Below, piece after piece: positions 26,193 to 32,406 of a DNA stretch of 64,000 nt. The notes under the pieces are model-generated. The model saw nothing but the letters and a program-made list of their open reading frames with translations. It was not told the DNA's origin and made no database searches. The number at the start of each line of letters is the position of its first letter. Within the stretch, counting starts at the first letter, position 1. Origin of the DNA: an uncultured Isosphaeraceae bacterium (GTDB lineage Bacteria > Planctomycetota > Planctomycetia > Isosphaerales > Isosphaeraceae); the NCBI GenBank assembly GCA_945957605.1, contig CAMFLR010000007.1, positions 62,001 through 126,000 of the forward strand, written 5' to 3'. The position numbers and the translations under genes are program-made.

Positions 26193-26651
26193 GCCGAAAT
26201 TCCCGCGCTTCGCGCCCAATGCCTACGAATGAGTCGAAGTTCCCCCGCTCCTACGCTCCGCGTGGGAGCGTTTCTTCGACCGCTCCGCGGTCATTCCATT
26301 CAAGTAACCGCCGTCATCCCGAATCTTCCAGTCTCATATCTCCGCGACGCGAAAATTGCACTTCAACCCCAACTTTGTCACCTTGACATTAGAACAGTAG
26401 AAAAACTTACAAGATTCGCTTGCGGATTCGCTCTCCGGGAACTTTAGAAAAAAACGAGAAATTCCCTCCGATTTTTCGCCCATCGGCCAAACAGCGTGTA
26501 GACTTGAGTCGAATCCGCGATTGATTCCAAAAATCGCGAAGCGACCGTGAATCAGCCTCTGGCATCGCGGTTGCGTTAAGGGTACCGGCGTCGTGAGTTG
26601 GTCGACGTCGAGCGACATCGGCCCGTTTTACCGAGCTTCAGGAGCAGAGTC
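26193..26651. other. AT-richer intergenic region between pyrC and the amidase gene
   Basis: A 459-base gap. It holds the palindrome listed at 26248 and an AT-rich segment from about 26330 to 26560 that stands out from its GC-rich surroundings. This segment includes a perfect -35 hexamer TTGACA (26383-26388) with only a weak -10 (TTACAA, 26407). I see no gene and no RNA I recognise. Confidence 0.4.
26248..26274 (+). terminator. Palindrome/terminator after pyrC
   Basis: CGCTCCTACGC (26248-26258) pairs with GCGTGGGAGCG (26261-26271) with one G-T pair, followed by TTTCTTC. It is 55 bases after the pyrC stop. The core ACGCTCCGCGT also looks like the centre of a known type of dispersed REP palindrome, so it may be both. 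Confidence 0.55.
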
Positions 26652-27659
26652 ATGGCGTTCCCGCGCATGGCCTCGACACGTCCACGTCTTTTGCAAATGG
26701 CGACCGTTTGTCTCTCCGCCGCCGTTATGTTCAACACAACTGGGTGCAGCCATCGCCGTAGCGCGATGCGACCTGTGTACGGCACGCCCGTTCCCGCCGA
26801 ATCTGGCACGATTGTAACGGATGAACCGGTCGACGCAGGTATTCCGCCCGCGCTTCCCAAGAGCGGTCCGGTCATCGATCGCGAGATCGACAAAAACCTC
26901 GACAAGGATCCCGAACTCGCGCCAATCAAGCCGCAAAAGGATTCGAGCGTTAAGCCGTCGCGAAACAACACGACACCGCCCGCTGCGACCGACCTTAACG
27001 AGCCCGATCTGAACGTCGCCCCCGAGCGCAAGCCCAAGGCGAACATCATCGCCCCGCCGCTCGAAAGCCCTAACGGCTCCGGCCCCGCCGCCTCGCGGGG
27101 CACCGGAATCCGCACAAGCTCGCGGGTTCGCCGGACCTCGATGCAGGACACGGTTCGTCCGTTCGTGAACGACGCCGACGACCTCTTCCAGCCGCCCAAG
27201 GCCGACCGCTCGTGGAAGTACATCGTCGTCCACCACAGCGCGAACGCGACTGGGAGCTACGATCAGATCGACCGCGAGCACCGCAAGATTCAAGGGTGGG
27301 ACGGCTGCGGCTACCACTTCGTGATCGGCAACGGCTCCGACAGCCCGGACGGCCAGATCGAAGTTGCCCGCCGCTGGGCCAACCAGAAGCACGGCCTGCA
27401 CTGCCGCAACGGTAAGAACCCGGACGTCAACGAGTTCGGCATCGGCATCTGCCTGATCGGTGATCTCGACAAATCGCCGCCGACCCCCAAGCAGATTGCC
27501 GCCGCCCGCGCCCTCGTCGCCTATCTCGCCGAGCGATACGACATTCCGACCGATGCAGTCGGCACGCACGCTGAACTTGCCGAAAGTCCCACCGCCTGCC
27601 CGGGCAAGCACTTCCCCGAAGAACAGATCTTTGGCTCGAAGCACCTGGCCAAGAAGTAA
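26652..27659 (+). CDS. Exported N-acetylmuramoyl-L-alanine amidase (Amidase_2/PGRP domain)
   Basis: A 335-residue envelope protein. After an export signal ending in a weak lipobox (FNTTGC, Cys32) comes a Pro/Lys-rich, probably unstructured segment (about 40-180). The zinc-dependent amidase domain spans about 188-330: KYIVVHHSAN gives the first zinc His, THAEL near 306 gives the second His, and PTACPGKHFP gives the Cys ligand. Cleaves the bond between MurNAc and the stem peptide, or may only bind peptidoglycan. ATG 26652 is preceded by AGGAGC. The presence of Cys as the third ligand indicates catalysis. A strong terminator follows. Confidence 0.87.
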   Translation: MAFPRMASTRPRLLQMATVCLSAAVMFNTTGCSHRRSAMRPVYGTPVPAESGTIVTDEPVDAGIPPALPKSGPVIDREIDKNLDKDPELAPIKPQKDSSVKPSRNNTTPPAATDLNEPDLNVAPERKPKANIIAPPLESPNGSGPAASRGTGIRTSSRVRRTSMQDTVRPFVNDADDLFQPPKADRSWKYIVVHHSANATGSYDQIDREHRKIQGWDGCGYHFVIGNGSDSPDGQIEVARRWANQKHGLHCRNGKNPDVNEFGIGICLIGDLDKSPPTPKQIAAARALVAYLAERYDIPTDAVGTHAELAESPTACPGKHFPEEQIFGSKHLAKK

Positions 27660-27687
27660 GCCACCTGTCGAAATCCAACTTGAGTGA

Positions 27688-27714
27688 AGCCCCGATGATC
27701 AATCGGGGCTTTTT
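27688..27714. terminator. Intrinsic terminator shared by convergent genes
   Basis: AGCCCCGAT (27688-27696), loop GATCA, ATCGGGGCT (27702-27710), then TTTTTG on the plus strand; the minus strand has a run of A/T on the other side too. It terminates the amidase gene. The stop codon of the convergent globin gene (27699-27701) lies in the loop. Confidence 0.85.
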
Positions 27715-29060
27715 GTTTTATCCTTCTCGGCTTCAGTCGCCGCTTGCTTGTCCTTCGCAGAGACGATTTGCGACTCGTACTTGCTCAGCAATGCAACGAG
27801 CTCGTCCGCTTCAGTTTTTTTAACACTGTGTGCTTCGAGCACGTCGCGCAAGTCTTCTATCATGGCCTTATATTCCGAAGGCATGATGGCCATGGCTTGG
27901 TGAGCAGTCGCCATCTTCGCCCCCTTGTATTCAAACGGGCCACCCGTCCGACTGCTCAAAAACTCGAGTACGGCTTTTTCTATTTTGAGCATCGTCATGT
28001 CATCGGTCGCGAACTTGCCGTTGCGGCCAAAATCGACGCGTGGGTCATTCGACGCCTTGAACAGGAAGTCCTGAACAATTGGCTTGATCTTCTCGACCCC
28101 CCCGAGCCGATTCCAGAGCGTGGGATTCGTCGGCTCGGTCCGCGACGCGAGTAGTTCCTGCCGCATCCGTTCGGCGTAGCTCGTTCCCGCTGGCAATTTG
28201 GGTGTCTCAGCCGGCTTTGTGGTCGACGGCGAAGAATCTGGCTTGGTATCCGCCGGCTTGTCTTCGGTTTTGGGCATTTCTTGCGGCTTCGTATCCGCTG
28301 GCGTCGCGCTCGCGACAGCGTTCGGAGCCGGTTTCGTGTCGATCGGCTTGATCTCGGCCGGTTTCGATTGAGCCGGCTTTGCAACTTCTGCCGGCTTTGA
28401 ATCGGCCGCTTTTGCAACTTCGACCGGTTTGCTCGAATCCGGCTTCGTGTTCGCGGCCATTTCGCCTGCCGGAACTGCAGGTGTAGGCGGCTTTGCTGTT
28501 AATGCTTCGGCCGGCTTTGTCTCGGCGGGCTTTGGAGAAGGAGTCGTCGCTGGCTCCGGCGGCTTTTCCGTCTTGGCAACTTCTGTCGCCGCAGGTTTGC
28601 TCGCCTCAGGCTTCATCTCGGCCTTGGCTGGTTCGGCTGGCTTGGCCGCTTCGGGTTTGGGGGCGGGAGCTTGTACGACTTCCGCCGGCATCGCAACACG
28701 GCGCCGAGCCGCTTCAAGCAAGATGTCGAGCGGTTTTCGCAGTTCCAGGGCACGCTCAGCGTCGGTCGCAAGTTTTTCCGCCTTCGTCAGCGATGCGACA
28801 ACCTGCTTTTCATAGTCGGGCGAGACTTTGAGAAATGGGACGAGCGTTCGGAGCGAGCCTTGAAACAGCCGATAACAACCCGCCGTGTCGCCATTATTAT
28901 AAAGAGCAACGCCATCGTTAATTGTTTGATATGTTGCCGAATCGAGTGCAACCGCAAAGTCGCGCGACCACGCTGTAACCGGTGGCTGATCGGCGGCGAT
29001 CGCAATCGCAGCCACCAGCAGCATTCCAAGGGCAAGCGAGCAGACGCGAGGGAGAATCAT
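27699..29060 (-). CDS. Exported protein with a C-terminal truncated-haemoglobin domain
   Basis: A 453-residue protein. An N-terminal signal peptide (SLALGMLLVAAIAIAA) and a small helical domain lead into a long repetitive Lys-Pro-Ala-Glu linker (about 125-300) of units like KPAE, TKPA and SKPAE. The last 130 residues match a group 1 truncated globin: NRLGGVEKIKPIVQDF, GGPFEYKGAKM, the proximal His in TAHQAMAI, and a final helix DLRDVLEAHSV. The family's usual B10 Tyr position appears to be Leu. A haem globin outside the cytoplasm is unusual; O2/NO sensing or chemistry is possible. It is last in a run with sucCD and Nudix. The signal peptide and globin domain are read from the sequence; the function is open. 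Confidence 0.78.
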   Translation of the reverse strand: MILPRVCSLALGMLLVAAIAIAADQPPVTAWSRDFAVALDSATYQTINDGVALYNNGDTAGCYRLFQGSLRTLVPFLKVSPDYEKQVVASLTKAEKLATDAERALELRKPLDILLEAARRRVAMPAEVVQAPAPKPEAAKPAEPAKAEMKPEASKPAATEVAKTEKPPEPATTPSPKPAETKPAEALTAKPPTPAVPAGEMAANTKPDSSKPVEVAKAADSKPAEVAKPAQSKPAEIKPIDTKPAPNAVASATPADTKPQEMPKTEDKPADTKPDSSPSTTKPAETPKLPAGTSYAERMRQELLASRTEPTNPTLWNRLGGVEKIKPIVQDFLFKASNDPRVDFGRNGKFATDDMTMLKIEKAVLEFLSSRTGGPFEYKGAKMATAHQAMAIMPSEYKAMIEDLRDVLEAHSVKKTEADELVALLSKYESQIVSAKDKQAATEAEKDKTKSPD

Positions 29061-29102: not shown

Positions 29103-29663
29103 TCAATCCCACTTCTGGCCGCGCCGGATCGCCTCATGAAACAGGGCGATCACGGTCATCGAGTCGGTGATTTGTCCCGATCGTACCATGCGCCACGCCT
29201 CAGGCCACGGTACGCGTCGCACTTCGATTCGTTCGGTCCCTTCGGGCTCGCTCGGCCCGTGAGTTAGGCCAGTCGCGCGAAACACCGTCGCCAACTCGTC
29301 GCTGACTGAATTGGAAAGATGAGAGATCGAGATCCGCTCATATTCAGCCGCGACAAGCCCCGTCTCCTCGACAAGCTCGCGGCGGGCGGTTTCGAGCGGA
29401 TCTTCGCCCGGCGGACCGCCGCCTTCGGGGATCTCCCACGAATACATGTCGAGTGGATATCGGTGCTGGCCCACCATCCAGATTGAGCCGTCGTCGTCGA
29501 CCGGCAAAACGCCAACAGCGTGGTTCTTGAAGTGAACCACGCCGTAAATTCCCGGCTTGCCGTCGGGACGAATAATTTGATCCTCTCGCACGTTGATCCA
29601 CGGATTATCGTAGATCGCCCGCGTTGCGAGAGTCTTCCAGGGATTGCCTTCGTGATCGCTCAC
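29103..29663 (-). CDS. Nudix hydrolase, ADP-ribose pyrophosphatase type
   Basis: A 186-residue protein whose Nudix box reads GGGPPGEDPLETARRELVEE followed by TGL, matching G-x5-E-x7-R-E-(I/L/V)-x-E-E-x-G-(I/L/V). The upstream YSWEIPEGG is typical of ADP-ribose/nucleoside-diphosphate-sugar pyrophosphatases. It likely clears nucleoside diphosphate derivatives; the substrate is not readable from the sequence. The start is a GTG at 29663. The gene begins six bases after the sucD stop, so it is co-transcribed with the succinyl-CoA synthetase genes. Confidence 0.88.
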   Translation of the reverse strand: MSDHEGNPWKTLATRAIYDNPWINVREDQIIRPDGKPGIYGVVHFKNHAVGVLPVDDDGSIWMVGQHRYPLDMYSWEIPEGGGPPGEDPLETARRELVEETGLVAAEYERISISHLSNSVSDELATVFRATGLTHGPSEPEGTERIEVRRVPWPEAWRMVRSGQITDSMTVIALFHEAIRRGQKWD

Positions 29664-29669
29664 AGGCCT

Positions 29670-30551
29670 TTAACCCTTGAGCGCGGCCTGAAGGGTCACC
29701 CCCATGTCGGCCGGACTCTTGGCGACCTTGATTCCCGCGGCTTCGAGCGCAGCAATCTTGTCCGACGCCTTGCCCGAACCGCCCGAGATGATCGCGCCGG
29801 CGTGGCCCATGCGCTTGCCCGGAGGAGCGGTTTGACCGGCGATGAACGCGGCCATCGGCTTCGTGAACTCGCCTGAGCGCTTCAACTCAGCGGCCTGTTC
29901 CTCGGCGTTGCCGCCGATTTCGCCCATCATCAAGACGGCGTCGGTGTCAGGATCTGCCTGGAACATCCGCAGAACGTCAACGAAGTTGGTGCCGTTCACC
30001 GGGTCGCCGCCGATGCCAACGCACGTGCTCTGGCCAATGCCGAGGTTCGTGAGTTGCCAAACACCTTCATAAGTGAGAGTGCCCGAGCGGCTAACGAGCC
30101 CCACTCGCCCCGGCTTATGAATATATCCCGGCATAATGCCGATCTTGCACGCGCCCGGAGTAATCACGCCCGGGCAGTTGGGACCGATCAGTCGCGCCTT
30201 GGGATGATGCGCCTTCAAATAGGCCACGGCGCGAGCCATGTCGAGGACCGGAATCCCCTCGGTGATCGCGACGATCAGCGAAATTCCCGCGTCGGCCGCT
30301 TCGAGAATCGCGTCGGCCGCGAACGGCGGCGGCACGAAAATCATCGTCGCGTTCGCGCCGGTCTTGGCGACGGCTTCATGGCACGTATCGAAGACAGGTA
30401 CGCCAAGAGTTGACGTGCCGCCGCGACCGGGTGTCACACCGCCAACCAGCGTGGTGCCATAGTCGCGGCAATTCTCCGAGTGGAACGCCCCCGCCTTGCC
30501 GGTGATCCCCTGACAGATCAGACGCGTGTTCTTGTCGACAAGAATGCTCAT
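29670..30551 (-). CDS. sucD: Succinyl-CoA ligase, alpha subunit
   Basis: A 293-residue CoA-binding subunit of the TCA-cycle enzyme that converts succinyl-CoA to succinate with substrate-level phosphorylation. The CoA-binding N-terminus has [17 protein letters not shown] and GGVTPGRGG. The phosphorylated His is in [17 protein letters not shown]. The subunit is complete at the usual length. Unusually, it is separated from sucC by a nucleotidyltransferase-like gene. Confidence 0.96.
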
Positions 30552-30573: not shown

Positions 30574-31146
30574 TTAATTGTGATGATCTTGTTCGCTGGC
30601 GATCGCCTTCACGAGCTTGCGAAAGCCGGGTTGAAGCGATTCGTCGAGATCGTCGGCAAAATCGCTGCAAAGTTGGCGATGTCGAATGAGGCCGACGACG
30701 TCGCCCATATCCTGAGCACGCGACGGGAATTTGAGGCCCGTTCGCATCTTCATCTCAATCAAATCAGTAAGCGAAACGGTCGTGATCCCGTCGATTTCCA
30801 CAGGACTACCCAGGTCGAATCCAACCTGATCGCTTCTGACGAGATGAACTGGAACTCCGCCTCGCATGTATTCTTTTTTGATCGGGTCGCGAATGAATCC
30901 GTTGTCGATCAGGACTTGCCCAACCGTGTTAGTCGAGTCAATCGCCACGAGATCGACGTCAGTCGTCGTTCGGACGTAGCCGTGCAGCACGACCGCAATG
31001 CCACCGATCACCGGCGCTGAAACGCCTGCCGCGCGGAGGATCTCTGAGATGTCGTGAGCGGTTTCGAGGATCGCACCTCGGCCGTCGAGCATCCGTAAAG
31101 CCTCGTCGCGCAAGAACGTGTCAGCAACCGGCGCGTTGGTGGTCAT
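30574..31146 (-). CDS. Nucleotidyltransferase-fold protein inserted between sucC and sucD
   Basis: A 190-residue protein with the polymerase-beta-type nucleotidyltransferase pattern: [22 protein letters not shown], where GG, HG, R-x-T and D-x-D are the motif residues (about 46-67). The rest, including [13 protein letters not shown], resembles the AbiEii/MNT-like stand-alone nucleotidyltransferases. The gene is co-directional with sucC (gap 9 bases) and sucD (gap 22 bases), so it is translated from the same message. No paired antitoxin-size gene is adjacent. The role could be AMP or nucleotide transfer to an unknown target; I would not claim toxin activity. Confidence 0.75.
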
Positions 31147-31155
31147 GGATATGCG

Positions 31156-32406
31156 TCAGGCCGCCCCTTTCGCCGCCGCGACAACCTTTTTCGCCGCGTC
31201 GGTCAGGCCGTCCGCCGTGATAATCTTCCGGCCCGACTCGGAAAGCAGCTTCTTGCCCAGCTCGACGTTCGTCCCTTCGAGACGAACCACCAAGGGGACG
31301 TTGAACTCGATCTCGTCGTAAGCTGCCAGAAGTGCCGACGCGATGATGTCGCACTTCATGATGCCGCCGAAGATATTCACGAGAACCGCTTTCACGTTCT
31401 TCGTGCCGAGCAAAATGCGGAAGGCTTCGAGCACCTGATCCTTCTGCGCACCACCACCGACGTCGAGGAAGTTGGCCGGCTCGCCGCCGTGATACTTGAT
31501 CAGGTCCATCGTGCTCATCGCCAGGCCGGCACCGTTTACCAGGCAAGCGATATCGCCATCGAGACTGACGTAGCTCAGGCCGCTCTTGCCGGCGCGAAGC
31601 TCGTTCGGATCTTCTTCGTGCTCGTCGAGCAACGCGGCCACGTCTTTATGCTTGAACATCGCGTTGTCGTCGAAGTTCAGCTTGGCATCGAGTGCCAGCA
31701 CTTCGCCCGAATCGGTGACGATCAGCGGGTTGATCTCGGCGAGCGACGCATCTTTATCAATGAAGAACTTCACGAACGCCTTGAAGAGCGCTTCGCCCTT
31801 GCGAACGCTTTCGCCCTTCAGTCCGAGCGCTGCCGAGATCTTGCGAGCCTGGAAATCGGCGAGGCCCATGCCGACGTCGATCGGTTCGCGGTGAATCTTC
31901 TCAGGAGTCTCGTGGGCAACGGTTTCGATCTCGACGCCGCCTTCGGTCGAGGCCATCAAAACCGGGCACTGCGTGGCGCGGTCGACGGCCACGGCGAGAT
32001 AAAGCTCGCGTTCGATGTTGTGGCCGACGGTCACCAGCACCTTGCGAATGAGCTGACCTTCTTCGCCGGTCTGGTAGGTGATCAGCGTCTTGCCCAGCAA
32101 GCTAGCGGCTGCGGCCTTCGCTTCTTCCTTGCTGTTGACGAGCTGAACTCCCTTGGCCATTCCGGGCTGGCGAGGCTTGCGGCCGCTGGCGATCTCGAGG
32201 GCATCGGCCTTGTCAGCTTCGGGGCCGACTGCGATACCCTTCCCGCGACCGCCGGCATGCACCTGGGCTTTGACGACGATCAGGCCTCCGCCCAACTTGT
32301 CGTACGCCTCGGCGGCCTCCTCGGGAGTGGTCGCCACCACGCCCGCGGGAACGGCAACTCCGGCCGCCTTCAGCAAATCCTTGGCCTGATATTCGTGGAC
32401 TTTCAT
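31156..32406 (-). CDS. sucC: Succinyl-CoA ligase, beta subunit
   Basis: A 416-residue ATP-grasp subunit. The nucleotide-binding part has [11 protein letters not shown] near residues 46-56. The metal-binding segment is [20 protein letters not shown], and the C-terminal CoA-ligase domain carries [13 protein letters not shown] and FLDVGGGA. It is complete and forms the heterodimer with sucD. First gene of the five-gene minus-strand run sucC, nucleotidyltransferase, sucD, Nudix, globin. Confidence 0.96.

Follow-up and report, generated by a model that had tools for sequence, protein, structure and literature searches.

The window, a stretch of 64,000 nucleotides from an uncultured Isosphaeraceae bacterium, contains a gene for a truncated haemoglobin with a predicted export signal. 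The globin gene lies downstream of sucC, a nucleotidyltransferase-like ORF, sucD and a Nudix hydrolase gene on the same strand (Table 1), and begins 42 bp after the stop of the Nudix gene. This arrangement agreed with a preliminary description of the DNA, in which the globin gene was the last gene of an operon with TCA-cycle genes and a Nudix hydrolase. Promoter- and terminator-like sites in the locus did not exceed those in shuffled sequences. On the + strand, a stem of 11 pairs (27686-27712) overlapped the globin stop. The nucleotidyltransferase-like ORF was about 50% identical in a genome of the same genus, versus 96% for sucD.

Table 1. Features of the globin locus, in window coordinates
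Feature	Position	Strand	Basis or remark
Exported NTD-linker-globin gene	27699..29060	-	453 aa, ATG start; export predicted
Signal peptide, Sec type, residues 1-22, cleavage approximate	28995..29060	-	By eye
N-terminal four-helix domain (NTD), residues 30-125, without a Pfam name	28686..28973	-	Paralogue identity 37%, model pLDDT 90.8
Lys/Pro/Ala/Glu-rich linker, residues 126-293 (about 168 residues)	28182..28685	-	Composition count
Group 1 truncated-globin domain (TrHbN-2), residues 314-432	27765..28121	-	PF01152, model, Foldseek
Proximal His F8 (His387), codon CAC	27900..27902	-	Conserved alignment column
Nudix hydrolase, directly upstream in operon	29103..29663	-	PF00293
Succinyl-CoA ligase alpha (sucD)	29670..30551	-	Domain search
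Nucleotidyltransferase-like ORF between sucC and sucD	30574..31146	-	Weak DUF6036/DUF2204 matches below cut-off
Succinyl-CoA ligase beta (sucC)	31156..32406	-	Domain search
Convergent N-acetylmuramoyl-L-alanine amidase bounding the locus	26598..27659	+	PF01510; neighbour in other genomes too

The N-terminus of the precursor is hydrophobic, a cleavage site of the Ala-x-Ala type is seen by eye near residue 22, and export of the Sec type is predicted. The leader of the same-genus orthologue (L112) was classed as SPI by an in-house rule. When the precursor sequence was read for CxxCH, no such motif was found, and it holds two cysteines in total. The stretch of residues 121-293 (173 residues) contained 37 Ala, 36 Pro, 24 Lys and 17 Glu; KP occurred 21 times and KPAE six times in the whole protein. 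Tandem Repeats Finder reported a single short array of 18 bases x 3.6 in the linker DNA. The linker is thus a biased, low-complexity sequence and not a strict tandem array. The orthologue linker (108 residues) was not KPAE-like. The Lys/Pro/Ala/Glu richness given in the preliminary description was therefore retained, and by comparison with the orthologue the KPAE character is not conserved.

The C-terminal domain was matched by PF01152 with E 2.3e-9 and 37.9 bits against a cut-off of 21. An AlphaFold2 model of the globin part, built from 90 sequences, kept the globin fold with a pLDDT of 89.9. Its top Foldseek match was the group 1 truncated haemoglobin of S. benthica (8ugz; E 4.5e-7, TM 0.89 by target). 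All 25 matches at E<=0.001 were truncated haemoglobins, namely those of S. benthica, Tetrahymena, Paramecium and Chlamydomonas and the HbN of M. tuberculosis. The Tetrahymena, Paramecium and Chlamydomonas proteins are presumably also of group 1. The proximal His387 was invariant in the 90 alignment rows chosen (the window globin and 89 of 92 pieces, with L120, which has no proximal His, L124 and L143 left out). Leader, linker and a C-terminal group 1 globin with its proximal His, as first described, were thus recovered. Sequence and model together make an exported TrHbN-2 haem domain probable, and binding of haem b is predicted.

The distal pocket was assigned by alignment to S. benthica HbN. 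Met400 was taken to be G8 in HbN numbering. The other positions, numbered after the available text of PMC11904497, were Leu333 at B10, Ala336 at B13, Phe350 at CD1, Ile360 at E7, Ala363 at E10 and Val364 at E11; the CD1 assignment is uncertain because an insertion precedes the CD loop in the alignment. In 27 NTD-globin rows, B10 was V/L/I and E7 was L/M/I/V in 27/27, E11 was L/V/I/M in 27/27, and F8 was His in 26/27. Phe344 was used as CD1 in this count and is less favoured than Phe350; the remainder group of the count ('other <L145') also holds cytoplasmic-type rows. Five TrHbN-1 rows from the same family all carried Tyr B10 and Gln E11. Hydrophobic B10, E7, E11 and G8 residues are described for S. 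benthica HbN and are linked in the available part of PMC11904497 to a low affinity for O2, as befits transport or storage, and the available part of PMC4720485 ties low-affinity members of clade N to hydrophobic E7, E11 and G8. The wholly apolar pocket read from the window sequence fits low-affinity gas binding.

M. tuberculosis HbN, a TrHbN-1, shares the group 1 2/2 fold with the window globin. Its NO/O2 chemistry relies on Tyr B10 and Gln E11, whereas the window pocket is apolar and resembles that of 2gl3, a variant of HbN engineered to Tyr B10 Phe / Gln E11 Val. The window globin does not fit an NO dioxygenase of the HbN type: the Tyr B10/Gln E11 network is absent, with Leu and Val in its place. 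Removal of NO, as suggested in the preliminary description, is thus unlikely to proceed by dioxygenation because the pocket is apolar, with Leu, Ile and Val at B10, E7 and E11.

S. benthica HbN (TrHbN-2; PDB 8ugz, 7tt9) was the best match in both sequence and fold, and has the proximal His and the hydrophobic B10, E7 and E11 in common with the window globin. It starts at the globin (match from chain residue 2) and is without signal peptide, NTD and linker. It carries Tyr at CD1 and His at B13, where the window globin has Phe and Ala. Tyr(CD1) confers peroxide reactivity on S. benthica HbN, according to the available text of PMC11904497. The window protein could likewise be a peroxide-reactive globin that guards the envelope, and Tyr or Trp stands at the CD1-aligned position in many family members (KY or EW). 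However, Phe occupies this position in both the window protein and the orthologue, as it does in the Y34F variant, with the CD-loop alignment uncertain owing to the insertion, and a peroxide-related role is very unlikely.

The Pfam search of the window protein gave no name for the NTD. A model built from 16 sequences was a four-helix bundle. Foldseek with this model gave no match at E<=0.001, and the best VIA-align Z of 8.8 was within the chance level for helical bundles according to the tool's own note. A two-row NTD profile matched 31 of 294 planctomycete genomes. The NTD also occurred in proteins without globin (L006-L034), of which 28 of 29 were compared, with L017 left out. Pfam identified Fasciclin (FAS1) in 23 of the 28, CIA30 in 9 and SOUL in 9. 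Gly, Cys, Tyr, Trp, Arg and Asp positions were invariant among these 28 NTDs; Gly, Cys, Leu-Arg and Asp were invariant among the 16 globin-linked NTDs. The NTD is thus a conserved domain without a Pfam entry, and it was missed in the preliminary description.

The window genome held four PF01152 domains in three proteins. One, on contig C12, is a paralogue with a leader, the same NTD and two globins, and the two NTDs are 37% identical. The third protein (L002 1432-3078, on contig C24 of the window genome, G000) has 548 aa, with an N-terminal Bac_globin, ankyrin repeats and no visible leader. A genome of the same genus (G300) carried a tandem-globin protein and also an orthologue of the window gene, in which both architecture and synteny are preserved. 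The gene order around the orthologue was that of the window: amidase, globin, Nudix, sucD, nucleotidyltransferase-like ORF, sucC and yacP. Between window gene and orthologue, the NTD had a dN of 0.38 and the globin one of 0.44, and synonymous change was saturated or nearly so. The neighbours in the same pair of genomes gave dN of 0.03 (sucD), 0.07 (sucC), 0.23 (Nudix) and 0.42 (nucleotidyltransferase-like ORF). The NTD and globin are thus under purifying selection, yet evolve faster than sucD, sucC and Nudix and at roughly the rate of the nucleotidyltransferase-like ORF. The layout of the window gene is not due to chance, since the orthologue shares its architecture and synteny and purifying selection is indicated.

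The distribution of the family was investigated in sampled genomes. A 10-row globin profile matched 53 of 392 planctomycete genomes at E<=1e-6 and, at 1e-3, 11 of the 45 genomes of the window's own family; the NTD profile matched 5 of those 45. In a scan of named genomes, 80 of 117 relatives were listed, and in 16 of the 80 the NTD was present, joined to between one and three globins. The domain order of the window protein was found in other planctomycetes, the NTD bearing one to three globins in Isosphaeraceae and Gemmataceae. One NTD-globin (L120 1955-2308) lay on a long branch and had Met in place of the proximal His. In three other planctomycete loci (L160, L163 and L164), a leader, a YHS-type metal-binding-like segment and a truncated globin were seen by eye.

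The syntenic genes of three genomes (G335, G336 and G337) encode two or at least three globins. In the tree, the window-type globins joined the last G336 domain with weak support (83/62), and the window globin lay on a very long branch of 1.15 shared with its orthologue. The window-type gene may therefore have lost its first globin or globins. Decay would extend this reading: from an ancestor with two or three globins only the last was kept, the space of globin 1 became linker, the rest drifts and the paralogue keeps the function. The multi-globin genes and the long branch accord with it, as does the alignment, where the linker stands opposite globin 1. The purifying selection on NTD and globin, the orthologue retained in a second species, and the retained His and GGPxxY motif argue against it, and a decaying copy is quite unlikely.

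The constancy of the locus was examined in the genomes of the window's own family. A Nudix match was found in 44 of 45 genomes, and the best 30 Nudix loci were surveyed. sucD adjoined Nudix in 28 of the 30, and an amidase match was present in 19, although these loci are short and absence may reflect their range. The slot after Nudix held an NTD-globin in only 4 of the 30 (G000, G300, G335 and G337). In G336 the locus is split: Nudix ends near a contig edge, and the globin contig runs into the amidase. From this survey the globin is an accessory and dispensable last gene of the sucC-sucD-Nudix locus, because so few of the best loci hold it after Nudix. Among 89 of 137 called neighbour genes scanned (a scan that omitted L112 entirely, the globin genes and many of the short ORFs), no partner family among those listed matched more than 3 members, and the NTD-globin loci shared no partner beyond the synteny of a few Isosphaeraceae.

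A TCA-linked function was ruled out as a general role, the sucC-sucD-Nudix locus being mostly free of globin, and the metabolic link proposed in the preliminary description is thus weak. That description had also suggested metabolism-linked gas sensing or NO removal at the envelope. The globin gene is co-directional with sucCD and Nudix, and low-affinity globins can be NO, CO or redox sensors, as stated in general terms in the available part of PMC4720485. The window protein contains no transducer domain, however, and no signalling partner recurred among the neighbours scanned. Since the operon mostly lacks the globin and the pocket speaks against NO dioxygenation, a metabolism-linked role at the envelope, whether in sensing NO/CO or in removing NO, is unlikely.

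Export signals were then compared among the nearest relatives. Export was called by a simple in-house rule and not by SignalP. A predicted export signal was found in 67 of 79 assessable relatives (16 NTD-globin and 63 non-NTD genes; L065, at a contig edge, was outside the 79), with 14 positives in the former group and 53 in the latter. The two NTD-globin misses had visible hydrophobic leaders without a preceding Lys or Arg. A lipobox was called in 31 of the 63 non-NTD relatives. This count is probably too low, because L085, L089 and L118 were called SPI despite a visible lipobox-like Cys. Among 307 neighbour genes used as controls, export was called in 45, or in 75 with freer start choice, and a lipobox in 5 or 10; none of the five TrHbN-1 was called exported. 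Fisher tests gave about 5e-19 for export and 3e-19 for the lipobox, values that are overstated as the rows are related.

In a tree of 89 domains (L071, L120 and L139 left out), the export label needed two changes versus a shuffled mean of 13.2, and the 71 exported rows clustered at support 85/82. L071, for which no signal was called, grouped with planctomycete domains in the globin tree. By record titles, the exported group spans about a dozen phyla, including Planctomycetota, Nitrospirota, Pseudomonadota, Myxococcota, Acidobacteriota, Bacteroidota and Chloroflexota. The sample consists of the nearest relatives of the window globin family and does not represent all TrHbN-2, S. benthica HbN itself starting at the globin. 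The normally cytoplasmic location assumed for truncated globins in the preliminary description does not hold for these relatives, because most of them carry predicted Sec or lipoprotein signals. The sequences suggest that the closest relatives form a haemoglobin class of the cell envelope that has been little studied. Relatives on plasmids bear the annotation 'group 1 truncated hemoglobin', a name without location. LysR-type regulators adjoined two Nitrospirota lipoprotein globins (L083 and L101).

Exported single-domain TrHbN-2 with a Cys pair, from Nitrospira, Cupriavidus, Acidobacteriota and others, belong to the same clade and share the signal peptides and the apolar pocket. Many of them are lipoproteins in which one Cys stands at E16 and the other immediately follows GGP, whereas the planctomycete NTD-globins lack both Cys and have the NTD. 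The pair is present in most of the relatives from outside the planctomycetes. Both Cys were present in 48 of 56 exported non-NTD rows, neither in 8 and a single one in none. Among 10 rows without a called signal, none had both and two had one. Cys at either site was absent from 17 NTD rows and five TrHbN-1 rows; the NTD rows number 17 here and 27 in the pocket count, duplicates being filed under earlier locus ids. The window protein has Ser369 and Phe376 at these sites. The two Cys were thus jointly present or jointly absent in all 56 exported non-NTD rows, but well-supported branches gave only three independent pairs (p 0.5 in a sign test), so co-evolution of the two Cys is no more than suggested. 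The pair is compatible with a periplasmic disulfide, with few independent events.

In Bacteroidota, a lipoprotein-type globin gene lay directly upstream of a hemA-type glutamyl-tRNA reductase in 5/5 loci (L111, L122, L124, L125 and L127), and two of these (L111 and L122) had two globin domains. No other partner of the non-NTD exported globins matched more than 3 among the families listed, with 79 of 170 neighbours scanned. The reductase next to these exported globins and the NTD in proteins with SOUL haem-binding domains are what would be expected if globin and NTD stored, buffered or passed on haem in the envelope, rather than gas. However, most NTD proteins carry FAS1 and not SOUL, no haem importer or exporter recurred beside the NTD-globins among the families listed, and the haem of truncated haemoglobins is buried and anchored by His. 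Haem handling is therefore doubtful.

The best published precedent found for an extracytoplasmic truncated haemoglobin is that of cable bacteria. In the available parts of PMC11976967 and PMC12093952, a periplasmic truncated haemoglobin is fused to a pentahaem cytochrome (lPHCtX), with a proposed role in O2 reduction as a terminal oxidase. That truncated haemoglobin is likewise predicted to be periplasmic, with one or two domains per protein. Unlike lPHCtX, the window protein has no CxxCH cytochrome and carries the NTD and linker instead. The open-access literature searched held no account of planctomycete NTD-globins or of TrHbN-2 exported as lipoproteins, subscription papers being mostly outside the scope of the search.

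For the window protein, a low-affinity gas buffer or carrier is our tentative proposal. Sec export would place the TrHbN-2 haemoglobin in the periplasm, and the long disordered tether would hold the globin away from the four-helix NTD. With five-coordinate ferrous haem, the globin would bind O2 (or CO/NO) in the envelope with low affinity and rapid exchange, acting as a local gas buffer or carrier and not as an NO dioxygenase. The operon would supply expression only, the globin gene being an accessory passenger. Several points count against this proposal. The globin is on a long branch, so its function may have shifted, and a buffering role is difficult to defend at low affinity and uncertain abundance. 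Among the neighbour genes scanned, no conserved partner pointing to O2 use was found. The apolar pocket is also compatible with NO/CO sensing, and one relative, L120, is without the proximal His.

Taken jointly, the data may be read as ancestral export in a large TrHbN-2 clade of about a dozen phyla. Its members would be lipoproteins or periplasmic proteins, mostly disulfide-locked, forming an undescribed extracytoplasmic system that in planctomycetes became NTD-linked chains of one to three globins. We consider this reading about evenly balanced.

The finding on the window gene is sound, its functional account is loose, and greater interest lies in the broader occurrence of predicted export among its relatives. 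The general view places truncated haemoglobins in the cytoplasm, and what is predicted for the function of the low-affinity TrHbN-2 half of group 1 builds on that view. If most of the clade is periplasmic or lipid-anchored, roles in O2, NO, CO or haem would need to be re-tested in that compartment. To this the window adds an architecture of NTD, tether and one to three globins, with a planctomycete envelope domain shared with FAS1, SOUL and CIA30 proteins. Tautonia sociabilis and Limnoglobus roseus are named species that offer the system for such tests.
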